Virus record (IMG/VR): IMGVR_UViG_3300018432_000013
Coordinates: 1 to 64,000 of that record
Length of the DNA stretch: 64,000 bases
DNA from: a virus
Reading direction: 5' to 3' (one strand)
The position numbers and the translations under genes were made by a program. The first letter of the stretch is position 1. Every line of letters starts with the position of its first letter. The notes beneath the pieces are model-generated. The model did not search any database, was not told the DNA's origin, and worked only from the letters and a program-made list of their open reading frames with translations. Below are positions 4,071 to 59,963 of this stretch, in pieces.

Positions 4071-4230
4071 CTCAATCCTCGGGGCCGCGTTGTAAGCGCG
4101 GTATTGGGGCGGGCTCTTTCGGTGTTGCGACCGGAAGGGCCCAAAGCTTTTAATGTCGGCTGCTCAGCGCCCTATGAAGCTGAGACTGGTGTGTGCGCCC
4201 AAACACAGCAGACCCCCGCCCGGGAATCAA

Positions 4231-4370: not shown

Positions 4371-4380
4371 GGGCACTAAC
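4371..4380 (+). promoter_or_regulatory. GGGCACTAAC element upstream of the VWA gene
   Basis: The core matches exactly. It ends 32 nt before the ATG at 4413, and a GGAAGAGG Shine-Dalgarno sequence lies between, so this is the spacing class with a normal leader. Confidence 0.6.
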
Positions 4381-5699: not shown

Positions 5700-5709
5700 G
5701 GGCACTAAC
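5700..5709 (+). promoter_or_regulatory. GGGCACTAAC element, leaderless-type spacing
   Basis: Exact core. It ends 8 nt before the GTG at 5718, and the 8 nt between (GCTTCTTT) contain no Shine-Dalgarno sequence. Confidence 0.6.
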
Positions 5710-6150: not shown

Positions 6151-6190
6151 TCGGGTGCAAGCCAGCGCACGTCCAAAATCGCTGATCGCA

Positions 6191-6199
6191 GGCACTAAC
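6191..6199 (+). promoter_or_regulatory. GGCACTAAC element, leaderless-type spacing
   Basis: Nine of the ten core bases match, preceded by GATCGCA. It ends 7 nt before the ATG at 6207, and CATCCAC between them is not a ribosome site. Confidence 0.6.
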
Positions 6200-6629: not shown

Positions 6630-8230
6630 AGGCTCGCAAGATCATCCTTGAGAACTTCATGACGCACGAGCAGACCGAGGTCTCGCTCCCGGAGACCGGC
6701 GTCATGCTCATCACAGGCCCCAATGGCGCCGGCAAGAGCGCCCTCGTGGTCGAGAGCGTGGCGCAGGCTTACTTCGGTCGAACGCTGCGCGGCAAGCCGC
6801 CCTGGAGCGGCGACCCGGCCTCGGTTCGGGTCGTGACGGACCTCTTGGACATCACCCGACGCAAGCAGGGCCAAAAGCTCATCTGGCACCTGCATGGCGA
6901 ACTGCCGACGACTTACGACACGCCCACCAAGGCGCAGGCTGCCCTGCAAGGCTTTGTGGGCACGTTCGACGTCTGGCGCCGCACGAGCGTGTTCTCGAGC
7001 TCGGACGCGGCGCACTTCTCCCTCGCCCGCGACCGCGATCGCAAGCTGCTCTTGGAGACCATTCTCGGTCTCGACCGCTTTGACCCGGCGCTCCAGCGTT
7101 GCCGCGTGGACTTGCGCGACGCCACGAACGCCCTGCGCACCTTGGAAGCCAAGGCGATGGTGCTGCGCGAGCGCATCAAGGGGACACTCGACCGTTTGCG
7201 CGATCTCGAGGACGCAGAGGAGAGCGAGGAAGCCGTCGTCGAGCCGCTGATCTCAGCGGAAAAGCTCGCATCCGGACGCGCACGTCTGCTTGTCATTCGA
7301 GAACTCTGCGAGAAGCAAGAGATTCGGCGCGTTGCCATGGAACGCGAAAACCACAAATGCTCGGCCGATGCGCAGCAGAAGGTGCGAGCTCGCAACCTGC
7401 TCGATCACGACAACTGCCCGACGTGCGCCCAACCCATTCCCACATCCCTACGTGCGAGCCTGCATGCCGAGGTCGAGGCTGCGGTCGAGAAGAGCCAGCA
7501 AAACGAAGAGTCGTTCAAGGCGGCACGTGTCAAGCAACGTGCGGATGTCGGCGCGCTGCAGGAAGAGGCAGACAAGATCCGCGCGCTACTGACCCACGCT
7601 GCGGCCATCGAGCGCGACCACGTGCGGCTGCGGCAAAACCAAGAGCAGCGTGTTGAAAAGCGGTCCCTATTCTTGGAGGAGCTGCGGGCAGCCAAGGAGA
7701 GCCTACGCAAGACGGAAGCCGACATGCTTCTCATGCGTCGAGACGTGGCGGAGCTTGAAGTGGTCGAGCGCGTGCTTGGACTGCGCGGCGTGCGCGCGCA
7801 CATGCTCGGCTCCGCCATGGCGGCGATCACCGCGCTCGCCAACGGTTGGCTCGCACGTCTGTTTCCCGGGGTGACCCTGTCACTCAAGGAAACCAACGAC
7901 CAGATCGAGCTCAACCTCCACGGGCTCAAGCACGAGTACGGCTACCACGCCGCCTCAAGCGGACAGCGGCGGCGCGTCGACATCGCCATCCTGCTCGCAC
8001 TGAGTGACATGGAGGCGGCCTCGCGCGGCGTCGAGCGCGAGATGCTCATCTTCGACGAGGTGGGCGACACGCTTGATGTGGAGCAAGGCCTGCCTGCCTT
8101 CATCGAGGTCGTGCAGGAGATTGCGGAAGAGCGCTGCGTCGTCATCGTGTCGCACAACCAGGCGCTGATGGAAGGATTGCAACCGACCGCACGTCTTTAC
8201 GTCGCCGATGGCCAGGTGTTCGAGCACTAA
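6626..8230 (+). CDS. SbcC/Rad50/T4 gp46-like recombination ATPase
   Basis: 534 residues, GTG start overlapping the upstream stop. It has all marks of an SMC-like ATPase: Walker A GPNGAGKS at 31-38, coiled coils flanking a zinc-hook CPTC near residues 264-267, the SSGQRRR signature near 443, Walker B MLIFDEVGD near 473-481 and an H-loop SHNQ near 508. Partnered with an Mre11/gp47 nuclease, such proteins resect DNA ends for phage recombination and degrade host DNA. The length matches T4 gp46 (about 560). No gp47-like nuclease is present in this window, so the partner is elsewhere or comes from the host. Confidence 0.85.
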   Translation: MKARKIILENFMTHEQTEVSLPETGVMLITGPNGAGKSALVVESVAQAYFGRTLRGKPPWSGDPASVRVVTDLLDITRRKQGQKLIWHLHGELPTTYDTPTKAQAALQGFVGTFDVWRRTSVFSSSDAAHFSLARDRDRKLLLETILGLDRFDPALQRCRVDLRDATNALRTLEAKAMVLRERIKGTLDRLRDLEDAEESEEAVVEPLISAEKLASGRARLLVIRELCEKQEIRRVAMERENHKCSADAQQKVRARNLLDHDNCPTCAQPIPTSLRASLHAEVEAAVEKSQQNEESFKAARVKQRADVGALQEEADKIRALLTHAAAIERDHVRLRQNQEQRVEKRSLFLEELRAAKESLRKTEADMLLMRRDVAELEVVERVLGLRGVRAHMLGSAMAAITALANGWLARLFPGVTLSLKETNDQIELNLHGLKHEYGYHAASSGQRRRVDIAILLALSDMEAASRGVEREMLIFDEVGDTLDVEQGLPAFIEVVQEIAEERCVVIVSHNQALMEGLQPTARLYVADGQVFEH

Positions 8231-8231
8231 C
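8224..8231 (+). promoter_or_regulatory. Partial GCACTAAC element
   Basis: Eight of the ten core bases match. They overlap the stop codon of the SbcC-like gene and lie 17 nt before the ATG at 8249, with GGGAGGGG between. It resembles the spaced class of the element, but the match is the weakest. Confidence 0.35.
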
Positions 8232-9068: not shown

Positions 9069-9085
9069 TGAGAGTGCGTGATCTC

Positions 9086-9095
9086 GGGCACCAAC
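9086..9095 (+). promoter_or_regulatory. GGGCACCAAC element, leaderless-type spacing
   Basis: Exact core preceded by GTGATCTC. This 8-base flank is identical to the one before the copy at 59007-59016. It is immediately followed by ATG (9096), with a second in-frame ATG 6 nt downstream at 9102. Confidence 0.6.
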
Positions 9096-30039: not shown

Positions 30040-30049
30040 GTTAGTGCCC
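30040..30049 (-). promoter_or_regulatory. GGGCACTAAC element upstream of the tail chaperone
   Basis: Exact core, 21 nt before the GTG at 30018, with GATGGGAGG between, so this is the class with a normal leader. It falls in the only sizeable gap (174 nt) of the tail operon. Confidence 0.6.
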
Positions 30050-30683: not shown

Positions 30684-32894
30684 TCAGCTCGCGGCCAGCT
30701 CCGCTTCAATCGCCCGTGTGTCCTGCGAGAACCGCAGGAAGATGAACTCTGCTGGCTTCTGCGTGGCGAGGCCGACGCGCGCAATCAGCTGCCCAGCAAA
30801 CACCACCGTGGGTGTGTTGAGCGCCTCCGAAACGTCGACGATGAAGGCCTTGCTGCGCTCGCGCGAACGGAACGCACCGACCAACATCTGCGCATTGAGG
30901 AAGGCCTGGATGGTGCGCTCCACCTCCGCGCGCAGCGTCTCGTCGTTGTTTCTGAAGCGCACGAACTCAAGTCCGTCCTTGATCGCCTGCTCGATGAAGA
31001 TGACGCCGCGCCGCTCGCTGATGGACGGGAAGTTGCTGTCACCCTTGAGCGTGCGCACGCCGTCAAGCACGGGCACTCCGCCCACGTAGCGGATGGGGTT
31101 GATGCGCTCCGGATAGAGCAGGTCACGATTGGCCTCCTCCTGCGTCGCGTCAGTCTCGAGCCCGGCACAACTGAAGATGCGGCCCTTCTCGGTGCCCGCG
31201 GGCGCCTGGTACACGCCGCCCGAGCTCGAAGCATCGGTGCGCGCGTAGATGCCCGCGATGTGCCCGCACGGCGGAATGGTCAGCGTCTTGGCCGAGCCGT
31301 AAAGCGCCTTGTTCGGGTTGAGCACCTTGATGTTCGGGTAGTAGATGGCCCCGAACTCCGACAGGTTCTCGAGTCCCGCCGTGGTGGTCACGTACGTACG
31401 CACCTGCTCGACCGTGAGCCCAAGCGGCGACGAGAGCACCGGGAAGAGCGCGCCCTTCTTCTGCATCGTCGCGTACGTGATCATCGCCACGTGCATCAGC
31501 GCCGTCTCGCGATCGGGGCTGATGAGGACGCGCGCGTCCTCGTTCAGATTGAAGCCGTGCAGGCCTGTCTGCGCACCGCGCGCTCCGATAAAGTCGAGGT
31601 CGCCGATGCCCGACAACCCATCCGCACCGCCCGTAAGCGGGCCGAAGGTCCCGTTCGCCGGCCGCACGCCGGGAATGAGCTCGACTGTCTTGATGAGGTT
31701 CGAACCTGCGTTCTCATCGTTGAGGGCGACCTCGTGGTAGTCGGGAGAGAGCGTGTCGACCGAGAGGTTCGGCCACGTCTCGCGCACGATGCCGTCCTCT
31801 TCGACCGTCAAGTTGAACTCGGTCTCGCGCCCGCTCGTCGCCGTTGAAACCACGATCACGAGGTCGTTGGCGTAGCTGCCGTCGGTCTTGCCGCGTACTT
31901 CGATCACGTCGGCTGCAGATCCCGTCCCGCCCTCATGCACGGCCGTGTCGAGGCCGAGCGCCGTGCGCGCCGTCGAGCTGTGTTGCACCTGCACGCTCGA
32001 CCCGCCGCCTGTCGTCGTCGAGCTGAGCCGGAGATTGCTCCCCGCAGCCGAGATGAGTGAGCCCGCGACGGCCGCTTCCACGATCGACTTCACTTCGGTG
32101 ATCGACACCGCAGCCAGGTCAGCAACGTTGCCAGAACCCGCCACATCGCCCGTCGCAAAGCCGAGAACGCCGTTGGCCGTGCCGCCGGTAACATCGACGT
32201 GGCTCGTCGTTCCTTTACGGTCACTCGTGAGCCGAACCGCGCCACCGTCCACATCGGCGCGCGCGCCGTTGATCTTGGCATTGATGACGGCAGCAGCCTC
32301 AGCGGCGGTCGCTGCCCCGATCGCAGCAAACTCCGACGTGAGGAAGGTGATGGTCTGAGGAGCGCCGCCATCGATGGCCACCGTCAGTGTTTGGTTGTCT
32401 GCGAGCGCGTAAGGCCCCGCGTTGGCGGCCGTGCGTGAAGCGGCGACCCCCGTGAAGGTCGCCGTGGCTGGATCACCGCCGTCGATGACCACGTTGAGCG
32501 TCTGGCCGCTCGTGAGCGAAAAGGGCCCAGGCAGTGAGCCCACGACGTAGCCGGCCGAAGGTGCGCCTGCACCACTTGAAAGATTCAAGAGCCCTTCGGC
32601 GCTCGTCTTGCTCGATGCATCCGTTGCGTCCGTGTGGTGCACGACGCGCTTGACGTACATCGCGCCGCCGCCGTTCTCGAAGAACCCTTGCACCGCGTGG
32701 CTCAGGTAGCCGTTCAAGATGTGCCCGCCAAAGACGCGCTTGTACTGATCGAACGACGTGATGAGCTGCGACTTGAAAGGGCCGCGCTCTGTGATGCCGA
32801 GCGCCGCTGTGATGGCACTGGGGCCTGCGATGATGGACCGGACCTGAGGGCTTTCCTCTTCGATCGAGATGCCGGAGCTAAGCTGACGGGCCAT
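30684..32894 (-). CDS. Contractile tail sheath protein with inserted repeat domains
   Basis: 736 residues, against about 400-500 for simple sheaths. The conserved N-terminus (GISIEEESPQVRSI, ITAALGITERGPF, FGGHILNGYLSHAVQGFFENGG) and C-terminus (PPCGHIAGIYARTDASSGGVYQAP-like, then GVRTLKGDS, RGVIFIEQAIKDGLEFVRF) are of the phage_sheath_1 family. Residues about 95-320 are an insertion made of two GPFSLTSGQTL/GPYALADNQTL beta units and a third SS-GGGSSVQVQHSS unit. The insert should stand on the outer face of the sheath. Confidence 0.9.
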   Translation of the reverse strand: MARQLSSGISIEEESPQVRSIIAGPSAITAALGITERGPFKSQLITSFDQYKRVFGGHILNGYLSHAVQGFFENGGGAMYVKRVVHHTDATDASSKTSAEGLLNLSSGAGAPSAGYVVGSLPGPFSLTSGQTLNVVIDGGDPATATFTGVAASRTAANAGPYALADNQTLTVAIDGGAPQTITFLTSEFAAIGAATAAEAAAVINAKINGARADVDGGAVRLTSDRKGTTSHVDVTGGTANGVLGFATGDVAGSGNVADLAAVSITEVKSIVEAAVAGSLISAAGSNLRLSSTTTGGGSSVQVQHSSTARTALGLDTAVHEGGTGSAADVIEVRGKTDGSYANDLVIVVSTATSGRETEFNLTVEEDGIVRETWPNLSVDTLSPDYHEVALNDENAGSNLIKTVELIPGVRPANGTFGPLTGGADGLSGIGDLDFIGARGAQTGLHGFNLNEDARVLISPDRETALMHVAMITYATMQKKGALFPVLSSPLGLTVEQVRTYVTTTAGLENLSEFGAIYYPNIKVLNPNKALYGSAKTLTIPPCGHIAGIYARTDASSSGGVYQAPAGTEKGRIFSCAGLETDATQEEANRDLLYPERINPIRYVGGVPVLDGVRTLKGDSNFPSISERRGVIFIEQAIKDGLEFVRFRNNDETLRAEVERTIQAFLNAQMLVGAFRSRERSKAFIVDVSEALNTPTVVFAGQLIARVGLATQKPAEFIFLRFSQDTRAIEAELAAS

Positions 32895-36074: not shown

Positions 36075-36103
36075 GTCAGGTAGGCTATCAGATGCCTACG
36101 TCC

Positions 36104-36113
36104 GGGCACTAAC
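36104..36113 (+). promoter_or_regulatory. GGGCACTAAC element, leaderless-type spacing
   Basis: Exact core, 9 nt before the ATG at 36123. GGTAGAAGC lies between and has no good Shine-Dalgarno match. It is the only such element for the short plus-strand operon 36123-37231. Confidence 0.6.
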
Positions 36114-36122
36114 GGTAGAAGC

Positions 36123-37034
36123 ATGCCGAAAGCCAGAACGACGAAGCAGCCAGCCACACCCGTGCGTGCCAAGGTCGACGACGCGCTCTGGGAAAAGATC
36201 CTGCTGTTTTACGTGAACAACCCGAAGCAGCACATGCAGGCCACCAAGGTCTTCGGGCTCTCGCGCCGCACCCTAACGGGGCTCTTCTACGAGGGCGCAC
36301 AGCACCTCAATAAGCCCCCGATGAAGAACCTGGTCGGCACCGTCGAGGTCCGTGCGCGCGCTCTTCGTGCAGGCCTACGAGACCAGGAGCTCGCGCGCGC
36401 CGACCAGGAAATCGACGCCATCATCAACGCCACTTCAGCAAGCGCTCTTGCGCAGAGCGTGGATGATGCGGCCCGCGCGCGCAGCGAGGAGGGAGCCGTC
36501 GTCGGTGCTGCGCGCCGCAACATCCTCTCACTGCAGTCGCTTCTGATCCCCCTGCTCGCAGGCGCCAAGAAGCGCGCGCGTGACCTCGAGAAGCTGCTCG
36601 ACAACGACCAGATTGAACCCTGGGAGCTGCTCAAGCTTTTCCGCGAGCTCGGCAAGTTCCAGCACGACCTCAACAGCGCTGCCAAGATCAACATGGACAT
36701 GGAGCGCATGCTGATGGGTGAGCCTGCCGAGTCGAAGACAGCGCAACCCATGACCCAGCGCGACGCCGTGCGCGTCCTCGAGCTCGGCGCGCGCACTCTC
36801 GAACGCATGCGCGGCAACGGCCGCCTGATTGAAGGTAAGGGGATCGAGGTCGCGCGTGTAGTAGCTAGCGCTGACGACGAGGAAGAGCTCGACCCGGAAG
36901 ACCTTGAGCCTGAGCCTTTCCCCGATGCGGGCGAAGAGAGTGAGCGCTTTGTACAACCTGAAGATCTCGCTGCGGCTGTGCGCACTCACTACGACCCAGA
37001 CGAGGAGATCTTCAACACGGAGGACGAGCCATGA
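36123..37034 (+). CDS. Probable terminase small subunit
   Basis: 303 residues. An N-terminal HTH-like region (about 18-65: ALWEKILLFYVNN, HMQATKVFGLSRRTLTGLF), a central helical oligomerisation region and an acidic C-terminal tail (about 240-303). This DNA-binding, helical and acidic layout is that of small terminases that recognise packaging sites and recruit the large subunit. The large terminase is 18 kb away on the other strand, which is unusual. Alternative: a transcription regulator of late genes. Confidence 0.45.
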   Translation: MPKARTTKQPATPVRAKVDDALWEKILLFYVNNPKQHMQATKVFGLSRRTLTGLFYEGAQHLNKPPMKNLVGTVEVRARALRAGLRDQELARADQEIDAIINATSASALAQSVDDAARARSEEGAVVGAARRNILSLQSLLIPLLAGAKKRARDLEKLLDNDQIEPWELLKLFRELGKFQHDLNSAAKINMDMERMLMGEPAESKTAQPMTQRDAVRVLELGARTLERMRGNGRLIEGKGIEVARVVASADDEEELDPEDLEPEPFPDAGEESERFVQPEDLAAAVRTHYDPDEEIFNTEDEP

Positions 37035-37231
37035 CGGGCTTCTTTGTCGGCCGCGTGTTCTTCCACATCTACACCGAAAAGGAAAACGTCTGCTGCAACG
37101 AGTGCGGCAAGTGGCTCGACGCGTCCATTGCCGCAGAGCACGCGCGCAAACGCCACCGCGGCCGCGCCGATGGTGTGCTCGCTGGGCAGCTCGGCCTGCC
37201 GTTCACGAACACGCCCGACGTACCGCGCTAG
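37031..37231 (+). CDS. C2H2 zinc-finger-like small protein
   Basis: 66 residues overlapping the previous stop by 4 nt. CNECGKWLDASIAAEHARKRH gives a Cx2C-x11-Hx4H spacing, a close match to a single C2H2 zinc finger. Single-finger proteins in phages may bind DNA or RNA. It overlaps the end of the convergent exonuclease gene by 4 nt. Confidence 0.6.
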   Translation: MTGFFVGRVFFHIYTEKENVCCNECGKWLDASIAAEHARKRHRGRADGVLAGQLGLPFTNTPDVPR

Positions 37232-38168: not shown

Positions 38169-38224
38169 CACTCACCTCGTGGCGAGTGCAGTGACGAGGC
38201 TTCAAGGACGAACTGGAACGCCAT
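38165..38224 (-). CDS. 19-residue leader ORF, leaderless-type start
   Basis: ATG 38224 lies 7 nt after a GGGCACCAAC element and opens a 19-codon frame (MAFQFVLEASSLHSPRGEW) whose TGA overlaps the next gene's GTG as GTGA. It begins inside the 3' end of the upstream gene. If real it would deliver ribosomes to the downstream gene. Its small size makes chance hard to exclude. Confidence 0.4.
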   Translation of the reverse strand: MAFQFVLEASSLHSPRGEW

Positions 38225-38621
38225 ACACAACGTTGGTGCCCGAAACTCCACCCGCGATGATGAGCGCAAGCTCGCGTGGTGCAACTTTGTGTGCGGTTGC
38301 CGCGCGCATGATGGCCACGCGCGGCTCGACACCGCTCAGGATGAGCGTTCGTGTCAGACGAGCGGCCTTTTCCATGGGCGACTCTTCTGAAGTCCCAACC
38401 CCAATCACGACGGTCACATCGCCCTCTGGGGCGCCTGGATCGATCAGCACCACTCGCTTGCCGTCCGCCATAAAGCCTCCCCGATAGGCGCGCTCCTCGT
38501 CGAGTCGCTTGCCGCGCTTGCCGCGCGATCGTATGCCGCGCGCTGCTTTGCGCGTGAGGAGCGTCTTGCCCTCCTTGAGCGCCTCGACGCGCTCGCGCAG
38601 CGTGTTGTACTTCTTCGGCAT
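38202..38621 (-). CDS. Basic hypothetical protein
   Basis: 139 residues. The N-terminal 50 residues are Lys/Arg-rich (TRKAARGIRSRGKRGKR), followed by an alpha/beta region with KRVVLIDPGAPEGDVTVVIG. No family is recognised. It overlaps the connector gene's stop by 1 nt, so it belongs to the late operon. Confidence 0.5.
   Translation of the reverse strand: MPKKYNTLRERVEALKEGKTLLTRKAARGIRSRGKRGKRLDEERAYRGGFMADGKRVVLIDPGAPEGDVTVVIGVGTSEESPMEKAARLTRTLILSGVEPRVAIMRAATAHKVAPRELALIIAGGVSGTNVVYGVPVRP
38232..38241 (-). promoter_or_regulatory. GGGCACCAAC element, leaderless-type spacing
   Basis: Exact core, inside the last codons of the 38202-38621 gene, where it encodes Ser-Gly-Thr-Asn. It ends 7 nt before ATG 38224. 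Confidence 0.45.
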
Positions 38622-39766: not shown

Positions 39767-40504
39767 TCAGCGATTGCGGCGTCGGCGACCGGACGGCGGG
39801 CTCGCAGGCGCGTCCTCTTCGCCGTCTCCACGTCCCTCGAGCGCGTCGGGCCCGAAGTCTGTGTCGCCCGGCGCGACGTAGTTCGGCTCGTCGTCCGGAT
39901 TGGCCGATTGCCCGTCGATGAGCACGGGCGCCTGAAACTGCTGATCACGATCGATGTTGGCAGCGTTGACGCTGAGCGTCTTGTCGTCGACACCCTGCGC
40001 CGCCGCCTCATCGAACACCGCGCTATCCGTCTCCTGCGTGACATGCGGGATGTCGGAGTACGTGTTGCGCGTGACGGTGCCGGAAGGCTGCGGCATCGGG
40101 TACACGCGCGGCGGCGGATACCCGTTCGGCGGAAACTCGTCGTTCGGTGCCTGGAGATCTGCCGTGGTCAGCACGCCTGCACGAGCCACCGAGGTCCGGC
40201 GCGGATCGTTGGCACGTAGCTGCGGCGACTGGTTCGGGCGCAGCGCCGATGCGCGCTCCCGTCGCGCGTTCTCGCGCTCTTCGACCTTGCTGGCGTCTTC
40301 TTCACTCAGGACGTCGAAGACGCTCTGCGACAGCGGATCGCTCTCGTCCTGCAGCAACTCCTTGAGCTGCTCACCGAGCGCGACCGGAATGCGGTACCAG
40401 CCCGCCGATTCACGAAAGCGCTGACCCATGAACGTATAGGTCTGCACCTTGTAACCCTGCTTGGGGTTGTAGGGCTTGATGCGAGCGAGCACAAAATCAG
40501 CCAT
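39767..40504 (-). CDS. Hypothetical virion-region protein, disordered C-terminus
   Basis: 245 residues. A short folded N-terminus (FVLARIKPYNPKQGYKVQTY, GWYRIPVALGEQL) is followed by a long Pro/Asp/Glu-rich segment that ends in RRRRNR. The N-terminus is typical of small neck- or capsid-associated proteins. No recognised family. Confidence 0.5.
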   Translation of the reverse strand: MADFVLARIKPYNPKQGYKVQTYTFMGQRFRESAGWYRIPVALGEQLKELLQDESDPLSQSVFDVLSEEDASKVEERENARRERASALRPNQSPQLRANDPRRTSVARAGVLTTADLQAPNDEFPPNGYPPPRVYPMPQPSGTVTRNTYSDIPHVTQETDSAVFDEAAAQGVDDKTLSVNAANIDRDQQFQAPVLIDGQSANPDDEPNYVAPGDTDFGPDALEGRGDGEEDAPASPPSGRRRRNR

Positions 40505-40540: not shown

Positions 40541-41218
40541 CTACGGCCCCATTTTCGTGCCCTTTCGTGGCACCTTGCGGGCCGCCTTCATCTCAGCTTG
40601 GTTGGTGCCCCGAACCCGCTCGACCGCGAACTGCGGCTCCACCGTATGCATGGGAAGTGCACGCAAGCGCGGGTCTGGAACATCGCCGCCCTCTCGGCGC
40701 AGCGTCTCGTTCTCGGCCTTGAGCTGCAGGTTGTTCTCTCTTTCGGCTGCAAGCTGTCCTGACAGTCGTGCGTTCTCGAGCGCTGCGCGGTCGTTGGAGA
40801 TCCTCAGCTTTTGCAGCTGCTCGACAAGCGCGCGCAACTCCTCGACCTCGGCGTGCTCCTGCGCGCCTGCAATCCTTGCCTGCGTGAGATCTCCACGCAG
40901 CCGCATCAGTGCCGCCTGCGCCTCGCTGAGCTCCTGACGCAGCCGCAGCGACTCGACCTCCTTGCTCAGAAGCTGCAGGTCGAGCGCTGGGGCTGCGTGC
41001 GTCCCGTGCAGCGCGGACGTTGGTGACCCAACTGCGGCGACGTCCGCTGCGCCGCGGGCTGTGGCCGCTGCGGACTTCTCTGCGGCCCTCTCCGCCCTCT
41101 TCATACGCCCCGTCGGTCCGATCATCGGCGCAATCCACGTATCGAAGACGAGCTTCACCAGCGCTGCCGCAGCAGCGGCAAGGATCGTGATCAACCACGT
41201 GGGTGGCGTGAGATTCAT
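40541..41218 (-). CDS. Membrane-anchored coiled-coil protein
   Basis: 225 residues. One N-terminal membrane helix (about 8-26, WLITILAAAAAALVKLVF), then about 110 residues of heptad-rich coiled coil (LLSKEVESLRLRQELSEAQ, LRALVEQLQKLRI, LENARLSGQLAAERENNLQL) and a basic tail. This is the i-spanin type of topology, but it lies in the head operon, far from the endolysin, so a host-membrane or assembly-scaffold role is as likely. Confidence 0.55.
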   Translation of the reverse strand: MNLTPPTWLITILAAAAAALVKLVFDTWIAPMIGPTGRMKRAERAAEKSAAATARGAADVAAVGSPTSALHGTHAAPALDLQLLSKEVESLRLRQELSEAQAALMRLRGDLTQARIAGAQEHAEVEELRALVEQLQKLRISNDRAALENARLSGQLAAERENNLQLKAENETLRREGGDVPDPRLRALPMHTVEPQFAVERVRGTNQAEMKAARKVPRKGTKMGP

Positions 41219-55167: not shown

Positions 55168-55177
55168 GTTGGTGCCC
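55168..55177 (-). promoter_or_regulatory. GGGCACCAAC element before the metzincin gene
   Basis: Exact core preceded by CGATC. It ends 17 nt before ATG 55150, with GAGGGG between (normal-leader class). It lies in the 36-nt gap after the large-terminase stop. Confidence 0.6.
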
Positions 55178-58725: not shown

Positions 58726-58998
58726 TCAACCTCCCTCTTCGTCAGGCTCATCAGGCAACTCGCGCAGAAACACGAGGAGCTTGGCCGCGTTCACCGGCCC
58801 AAGCCCCACCTCGAACCGAAAGAGATACTGATCGGTGTCTTCCTCGACCAGGGCGTGGCCCTCAGGTGTCGTGACAACGTCACCGAGCTGCAGGTCAAAT
58901 CGAACGACCTCGAACGCCAGACGCTCTGCGTCACCGGCGACAACGAGCTCGTCGAGCTGCTTTCTCATGGCCTGATGCTGATCGCTGTAGAAGGGCAT
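58726..58998 (-). CDS. Acidic hypothetical protein
   Basis: 90 residues from ATG 58998. The start is 8 nt after a GGGCACCAAC element, has no Shine-Dalgarno sequence and is only 37 nt from the terminator above. The protein has YSDQHQAMRKQLDELVV, then beta-rich VEEDTDQYLFRFEVGLG and an acidic end. No family is recognised. It is the first gene of a transcript that continues leftward. Confidence 0.55.
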   Translation of the reverse strand: MPFYSDQHQAMRKQLDELVVAGDAERLAFEVVRFDLQLGDVVTTPEGHALVEEDTDQYLFRFEVGLGPVNAAKLLVFLRELPDEPDEEGG

Positions 58999-59006
58999 TA
59001 CTGCAG

Positions 59007-59016
59007 GTTGGTGCCC
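59007..59016 (-). promoter_or_regulatory. GGGCACCAAC element between terminator and start codon
   Basis: Exact core preceded by GTGATCTC, the same flank as the copy at 9086-9095. It ends 8 nt before ATG 58998 and lies 19 nt after the T-run of the terminator at 59036-59085. Confidence 0.65.
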
Positions 59017-59035
59017 GAGATCACGGCCGACTGAG

Positions 59036-59085
59036 AAAAAAAAGAGAGGGCGATGCGGAGCGCCGACAGCCGCATCACCCTCTCT
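59036..59085 (-). terminator. Strong Rho-independent terminator
   Basis: On the minus strand a 16-bp stem (59085-59070 with 59058-59043, one G-T pair) and an 11-nt loop are followed by eight T. It ends the transcript of the genes at 59156-60681. Tandem CTACCAC units lie at 59112-59135 just before it. Confidence 0.8.
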
Positions 59086-59111
59086 CCCTCAGGGAAATGA
59101 GGCAGGCAAAC

Positions 59112-59135
59112 TCTACCACCTACCACCTACCAAGC
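59112..59135. repeat. Short tandem CTACCAC repeat
   Basis: About three copies of a 7-nt unit (CTACCAC, CTACCAC, CTACCAA) lie between the terminator and the stop at 59156. No function is apparent. Confidence 0.6.
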
Positions 59136-59953: not shown

Positions 59954-59963
59954 GTTAGTGCCC
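59954..59963 (-). promoter_or_regulatory. GGGCACTAAC element, leaderless-type spacing
   Basis: Exact core preceded by GAGATC. It ends 7 nt before ATG 59946; CTTTCGC between has no ribosome site. Confidence 0.6.

Follow-up and report, generated by a model that had tools for sequence, protein, structure and literature searches.

GGGCACYAAC, a repeated ten-letter element before genes of a tailed phage, as a possible promoter in the -10 position

The late promoters of phage T4 have an AT-rich consensus of the TATAAATA type. Their -10-like element comes without any conserved sequence at -35, and they are read by gp55, a diverged protein of the sigma family (PMC7892883). In leaderless promoters of mycobacteria, the position of the -10 element makes the RNA begin at the start codon or beside it, and no Shine–Dalgarno (SD) sequence is present (PMC4633059). 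The Start-Associated Sequence (SAS) of cluster K mycobacteriophages (GGGATAGGAGCCC) occurs in 11–19 copies per genome, contains an SD core, and is located 3–7 bp from the starts of non-structural genes only (PMC3203893). The stoperators of mycobacteriophage L5, more than 20 asymmetric 13-mers in short intergenic spaces, are oriented with transcription and bound by the immunity repressor (PMC9283540).

By its layout, the element GGGCACYAAC studied here is closest to SAS: it is a short, asymmetric, phage-specific repeat of about 15 copies, many of them a few nucleotides before starts; however, it has no SD core (AGGAG), and its distant copies go with separate SDs. It shares asymmetry and orientation with transcription with the L5 stoperators, but has a 10-mer core with fixed spacing to start codons. 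The -10 placement and the absence of an SD are common to it and the mycobacterial leaderless promoters, whereas the latter use an ordinary -10 sequence and the host sigma factor. As in T4 late promoters, a single -10-like element without a conserved -35 is present in many copies; unlike the AT-rich TATAAATA type, this one is GC-rich, and, in contrast to gp55, the candidate sigma factor of the phage seems to keep region 4. On our best reading, the element would work like the T4 late promoters; it is no member of that family, as its sequence differs and its reader is only a candidate.

The analyzed window consisted of bases 1–64,000 of a 112,926-base (112.9-kb) IMG/VR virus record. The rest of the record was included as well; gene calls were made with a simple codon-usage model, and starts are predicted. 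Family searches identified the record as a tailed phage of the contractile type, a myovirus: matches to tail sheath, tape measure, portal, major capsid protein, terminase, and baseplate hub were found, as well as to DNA polymerase A, RecA-like, and helicase genes. No close relative was found by nucleotide or single-protein search or in the phage collection, and no known RNA family was found in the window. Relatives of the capsid protein were present in IMG/VR and also in the genomes of Myxococcus, Archangium, Polyangiaceae, and Sandaracinus, mostly metagenome-assembled, which makes a host from Myxococcota likely.

Several other features of the record were noted. A RecA/UvsX-like protein of 671 aa (94382–96397) contained a LAGLIDADG domain, a probable intein, between its ATPase parts, and DNA polymerase A (89942–92578) had a uracil-DNA glycosylase-like domain at its N-terminus. 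A ParA-like partition protein encoded at 111492–112193 hints that the prophage state may be plasmid-like. Beyond the window, at 106149–108489, AAGCTGAGAC was found in 27 exact copies, most of them inside a degenerate repeat of about 28 nt, GGCTGCTCAGCGCCCTTGAAGCTGAGAC, with irregular spacing, often of 68–77 nt. This array adjoined the gene of a 605-aa TnpB-like RuvC protein (108593–110410), and single copies of its repeat were found elsewhere, at 4177 (+) and 104531 (−); array and gene together represent a possible phage-borne compact type V CRISPR array. A start-associated repeat, GGGAGCAC, was located at 66541–74169, with an ATG shortly downstream in 13 of 19 copies and shared leaders preceding.

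GGGCACYAAC, i.e., GGGCAC(C/T)AAC, was present in 15 exact copies in the record, with about one expected. GGGCACCAAC was found eight times (its reversed sequence was absent) and GGGCACTAAC seven times, where an order-4 Markov model predicts 0.06 occurrences. When up to one mismatch was allowed, GGGCACCAAC gave 20 matches in the window, compared with 3.8 ± 2.0 in shuffles, and this number was reached in none of the 100 shuffles. Noncoding sequence, which makes up 24% of the record, held 11 of the 15 exact copies (P = 9 × 10⁻⁵), and called genes contained the other four. The orientation of the element mostly matched that of the gene, and copies stood before replication genes as well as structural genes. 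Conservation over all copies was limited to the 10-bp core; GATC was found within 8 nt upstream of the core in 5 of 19 copies, with 0.56 expected, which is a post hoc count. The following copies were listed in the window:

4371–4380, plus strand: GGGCACTAAC, 32 nt before ATG 4413, divergent unit start
5700–5709, plus strand: GGGCACTAAC, 8 nt before GTG 5718 (85-aa ORF)
6190–6199, plus strand: AGGCACTAAC, 7 nt before ATG 6207 (nucleotide-kinase-like), no SD
8222–8231, plus strand: GAGCACTAAC, 17 nt before ATG 8249, strong SD
9086–9095, plus strand: GGGCACCAAC, 0 nt before ATG 9096 or 6 nt before ATG 9102
30040–30049, minus strand: GGGCACTAAC, 21 nt before GTG 30018 (baseplate hub), SD GGGAGG
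36104–36113, plus strand: GGGCACTAAC, 9 nt before ATG 36123, in a 48-nt divergent gap
38232–38241, minus strand: GGGCACCAAC, inside called gene 38202–38621; the ATG 7 nt downstream is out of frame with the next called gene
40601–40610, minus strand: GGGCACCAAC, at the 3' end of called gene 40541–41218, upstream of gene 39767–40504
55168–55177, minus strand: GGGCACCAAC, 17 nt before ATG 55150, SD GAGGGG
59007–59016, minus strand: GGGCACCAAC core, 8 nt before ATG 58998
59954–59963, minus strand: GGGCACTAAC, 7 nt before ATG 59946, no SD

At 92653–92720 of the record, a copy of the element was directly followed by a perfect hairpin, CCCTTCTTGT...ACAAGAAGGG, and a short ORF.

The distance between element and start codon was linked to the presence of an SD. 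Sixteen copies were compared in this respect: in ten, the start was 5–10 nt after the core, and in six, 17–43 nt. The spacer contained no SD before the near starts 58998, 59946, 36123, 6207, 9102, 5718, 87064, 80462, and 88735, the exception in this group being 83449, with ggagag; the far starts 8249, 55150, 30018, 98146, 4413, and 92706 had SDs of their own. Median SD strength was −2.9 kcal/mol for starts 5–10 nt away versus −8.6 kcal/mol for those at least 17 nt away; starts 5718, 9102, 87064, 88735, 98146, and 92706 were picked by inspection, so the P value of this comparison (0.003) is only indicative. With called starts only, 6 of the 15 copies that had a start within 120 nt had it 5–10 nt downstream (P = 5 × 10⁻⁵, uniform null). 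The pattern is characteristic of a -10-type promoter from which leaderless or short-leader mRNA is made: a promoter with an RNA start 6–9 nt downstream predicts exactly this split into near and far groups. A ribosome-recruiting element predicts the near group only, and a pure translation signal does not predict the link between spacing and SD.

We are thus inclined, with confidence a little above even, to regard GGGCACYAAC as a promoter element specific to this phage lineage, standing in the -10 position and acting without a -35, and we infer a transcription start at its copies. The DNA would be melted at the element by RNA polymerase, which probably uses an alternative specificity factor, and the RNA would start about 6–9 nt downstream. 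A gene 5–10 nt after the element would then be expressed from a leaderless or nearly leaderless mRNA, and for a gene further away, the leader would carry its own SD. At 58998, the element would restart transcription directly behind the terminator that closes the preceding unit.

Alternatively, the RNA copy of the element might recruit ribosomes or a phage RNA-binding factor instead of an SD, as a start-associated translation element similar to SAS. The copies 5–10 nt before SD-less starts would suit such a role, as would the short, asymmetric, and lineage-specific character of the element, which is that of SAS (PMC3203893), and the same phage has a second start-associated repeat, GGGAGCAC, with an SD-like GGAG. 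We nevertheless consider this role unlikely: no complementarity was found between the element and the 3' end of 16S rRNA, and the copies at least 17 nt away belong to genes with an SD of their own, for which a translation signal would be superfluous and out of range. Moreover, it would give gene 36123 no promoter in its 48-nt divergent gap.

This gap, 36075–36122, separates gene 36074 (−) from gene 36123 (+) and contains one more feature:

36082–36090, minus strand: TGATAGCCT, an extended -10 serving divergent gene 36074, back to back with the element at 36104

TGATAGCCT stands at an ordinary leaderless spacing to gene 36074, and no extended -10 was found on the plus strand of the gap. The copies at 4371 and 83469 are also located at divergent starts, without an extended -10. 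The plus-strand gene pair 36123–37231 sits within a minus-strand structural operon; in relatives, the orthologue of 36074 directly follows a same-strand gene, so the pair looks as if it had been inserted with its own start element. The copy at 36104 is the best evidence for promoter function. The first-pass annotation had proposed a promoter-type role for the element and had considered the terminator at 58998 the strongest local argument for it. Genome-wide and comparative evidence supports the role, but the terminator loses its leading place to the gap at 36104, the link between spacing and SD, and the -10 elements of relatives, all of which are stronger.

A further reading makes the element a binding site for a regulator (an operator, activator site, or stoperator) at the starts of transcription units, placed atop ordinary promoters too weak to be seen. 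An asymmetric, transcription-oriented, intergenic, and lineage-specific repeat of about 15 copies does have the layout of L5-type stoperators (PMC9283540). The fixed spacing of 5–10 nt to starts, however, is not a stoperator trait, and an extended -10 was also present in only 1 of 12 element-bearing gaps, there beyond a terminator; the two tend to exclude one another, but taken by itself, their lack of overlap does not reach significance (Fisher P = 0.68). No immunity repressor was identified in the general analysis of the record. This leaves a regulator site improbable in our view.

The gap before gene 58998 was organized as follows:

59110–59118, minus strand: TGGTAGAGT, an extended -10-like sequence upstream of the terminator
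59043–59085, minus strand: terminator hairpin with a 16-bp stem (59085–59070 with 59058–59043), one G.U pair, and an 11-nt loop
59036–59043, minus strand: T8 tract of the terminator
59017–59024, minus strand: 5' flank of the element, GTGATCTC, identical to 9078–9085 (+)
58726–58998, minus strand: 90-aa ORF without a family match and without an SD in the 8-nt spacer

The T8 tract occupies 59043–59036, so its first T sits in the last stem pair. With a GC-rich hairpin (predicted folding energy of about −30 kcal/mol) and a T tract directly attached, 59085–59036 is an intrinsic terminator, as the first-pass annotation had stated (16-bp stem, T8 ending at 59036, minus strand). Its distance of exactly 37 nt (59035–58999) between the T tract and ATG 58998 was also confirmed, with GGGCACCAAC inside at 59016–59007. 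The reported identity of the 5' flank with the plus-strand copy holds over 18 nt, GTGATCTCGGGCACCAAC at 59024–59007 (−) being the same letter for letter as 9078–9095 (+); the 8-nt flank is not general, and the core alone is conserved. The 37-nt segment contains no recognizable -35 partner, so a complete promoter of the sigma70 type could not be recognized in it. Among the other copies, only a weak terminator, at 92827, was found directly upstream, which means that the element is not generally placed behind a terminator.

The earlier argument that, unless readthrough is large, a promoter must lie within these 37 nt is partly supported; TGGTAGAGT, which it did not mention, leaves room for attenuation or readthrough. 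At this locus, TGGTAGAGT (59118–59110) could be the promoter and the hairpin an attenuator, with the gene expressed by regulated readthrough and the element acting otherwise or not at all. TGGTAGAGT fits TGnTAnnnT, and its RNA would be ended by the hairpin and T8 after about 70 nt. We consider this quite unlikely, given the great strength of the hairpin and the lack of any visible antiterminator fold; chance alone would place TGnTAnnnT in about five of the gaps examined, and the other copies would be left unexplained. A dispersed repeat of mobile or recombination-derived origin without a regulatory role would explain why the 10-mer is confined to one lineage, but its orientation and spacing to starts are fixed and its flanks are unshared save for the one 18-nt pair, which makes such an origin very improbable.

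The promoter reading of GGGCACYAAC was compared with the relatives of the phage, in which the element itself occurred at chance level (40 related records, 80 genome loci, and 39 helicase loci). In one of them, record G025, about 25 copies of TGTGAC-N18-TACRGT (YGGCCTACRGTAG) form a well-conserved bipartite promoter family giving leaderless starts; they are mostly located 7–10 nt, counted from the end of the 9-mer, before SD-less ATGs, and those at 32697 and 37889 directly follow terminator-like T tracts. This family (CTGTGACTCGCA-N-YGGCCTACRGTAG) has the same distance to SD-less ATGs and the same packing of terminator and promoter as the element, in a related phage; unlike the element, it has a clear -35 and a TAnnnT -10. 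In G002, a terminator, TAGGAT, and ATG follow one another within a few tens of nucleotides. Several relatives have the extended -10 TGnTAnnnT between a terminator-like region and the baseplate-hub orthologue, where GGGCACTAAC is found in the phage studied here. The element stands in places where relatives have a -10, and these layouts indicate that leaderless or short-leader starts behind terminators are thus normal in this phage group. Motifs were also sought de novo upstream of SD-less starts in the relatives, with success in G025 only. Record G025 also contained a start-associated repeat, AGAAAGCAGACA.

No -35 partner of the element was found: the best shared upstream hexamer occurred in 6 of 19 copies, compared with 5–6 in shuffles, and the same search recovered TGTGAC in 19 of 19 copies in G025. 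The copies do not have the bipartite structure of sigma70 or ECF promoters, with a -35 about 17–18 bp upstream of the -10, and the element matches neither the sigma70 -10 (no TAnnnT) nor any textbook promoter. A role as a -35 with a -10 downstream was ruled out, as no conserved downstream block was present. The -24/-12 promoter of sigma54 was ruled out too, as GG-N10-GC spacing, judged by eye, varies between copies. The search for a single-subunit phage RNA polymerase gave one match only, which was below the threshold and within the gene of the DNA polymerase.

A sigma-like protein of 213 aa was encoded outside the window (record 81360–82001, plus strand). Its matches to sigma families were weak but agreed with one another: it matched Sigma70_r2 with 17.5 bits (E = 3.6 × 10⁻⁴ in a one-genome search, below the Pfam curated cut-off), a PHROG sigma family (E = 0.0012), and SigH-type region 4; the best fold matches of its low-confidence model (pLDDT 64) were ECF sigma factors (E = 0.005–0.02). 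Of 24 relatives, nine gave sigma matches above the cut-off. Three of them, G002, G016, and G025, have their sigma gene close to a helicase orthologous to the one next to the sigma-like gene here. More weakly, we infer this protein to be a candidate reader of the element. It is conceivable, though rather doubtful, that an ECF-like sigma factor of the phage directs the host RNA polymerase to a GC-rich 10-bp promoter without a -35, giving leaderless mRNAs, and that sigma factor and element change together between lineages of this phage group.

If this were true, a whole transcription class of an uncultured phage group, probably infecting Myxococcota, would have been recognized from sequence alone. 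Phage sigma factors outside the group of T4 gp55 would then be able to use a single, very short, GC-rich element. The co-evolution of sigma factors and promoters would be testable because the relatives have clear sigma genes and yet differ in their elements. Other short repeats that directly precede start codons, such as SAS, may then be promoters of leaderless mRNAs and not translation signals.
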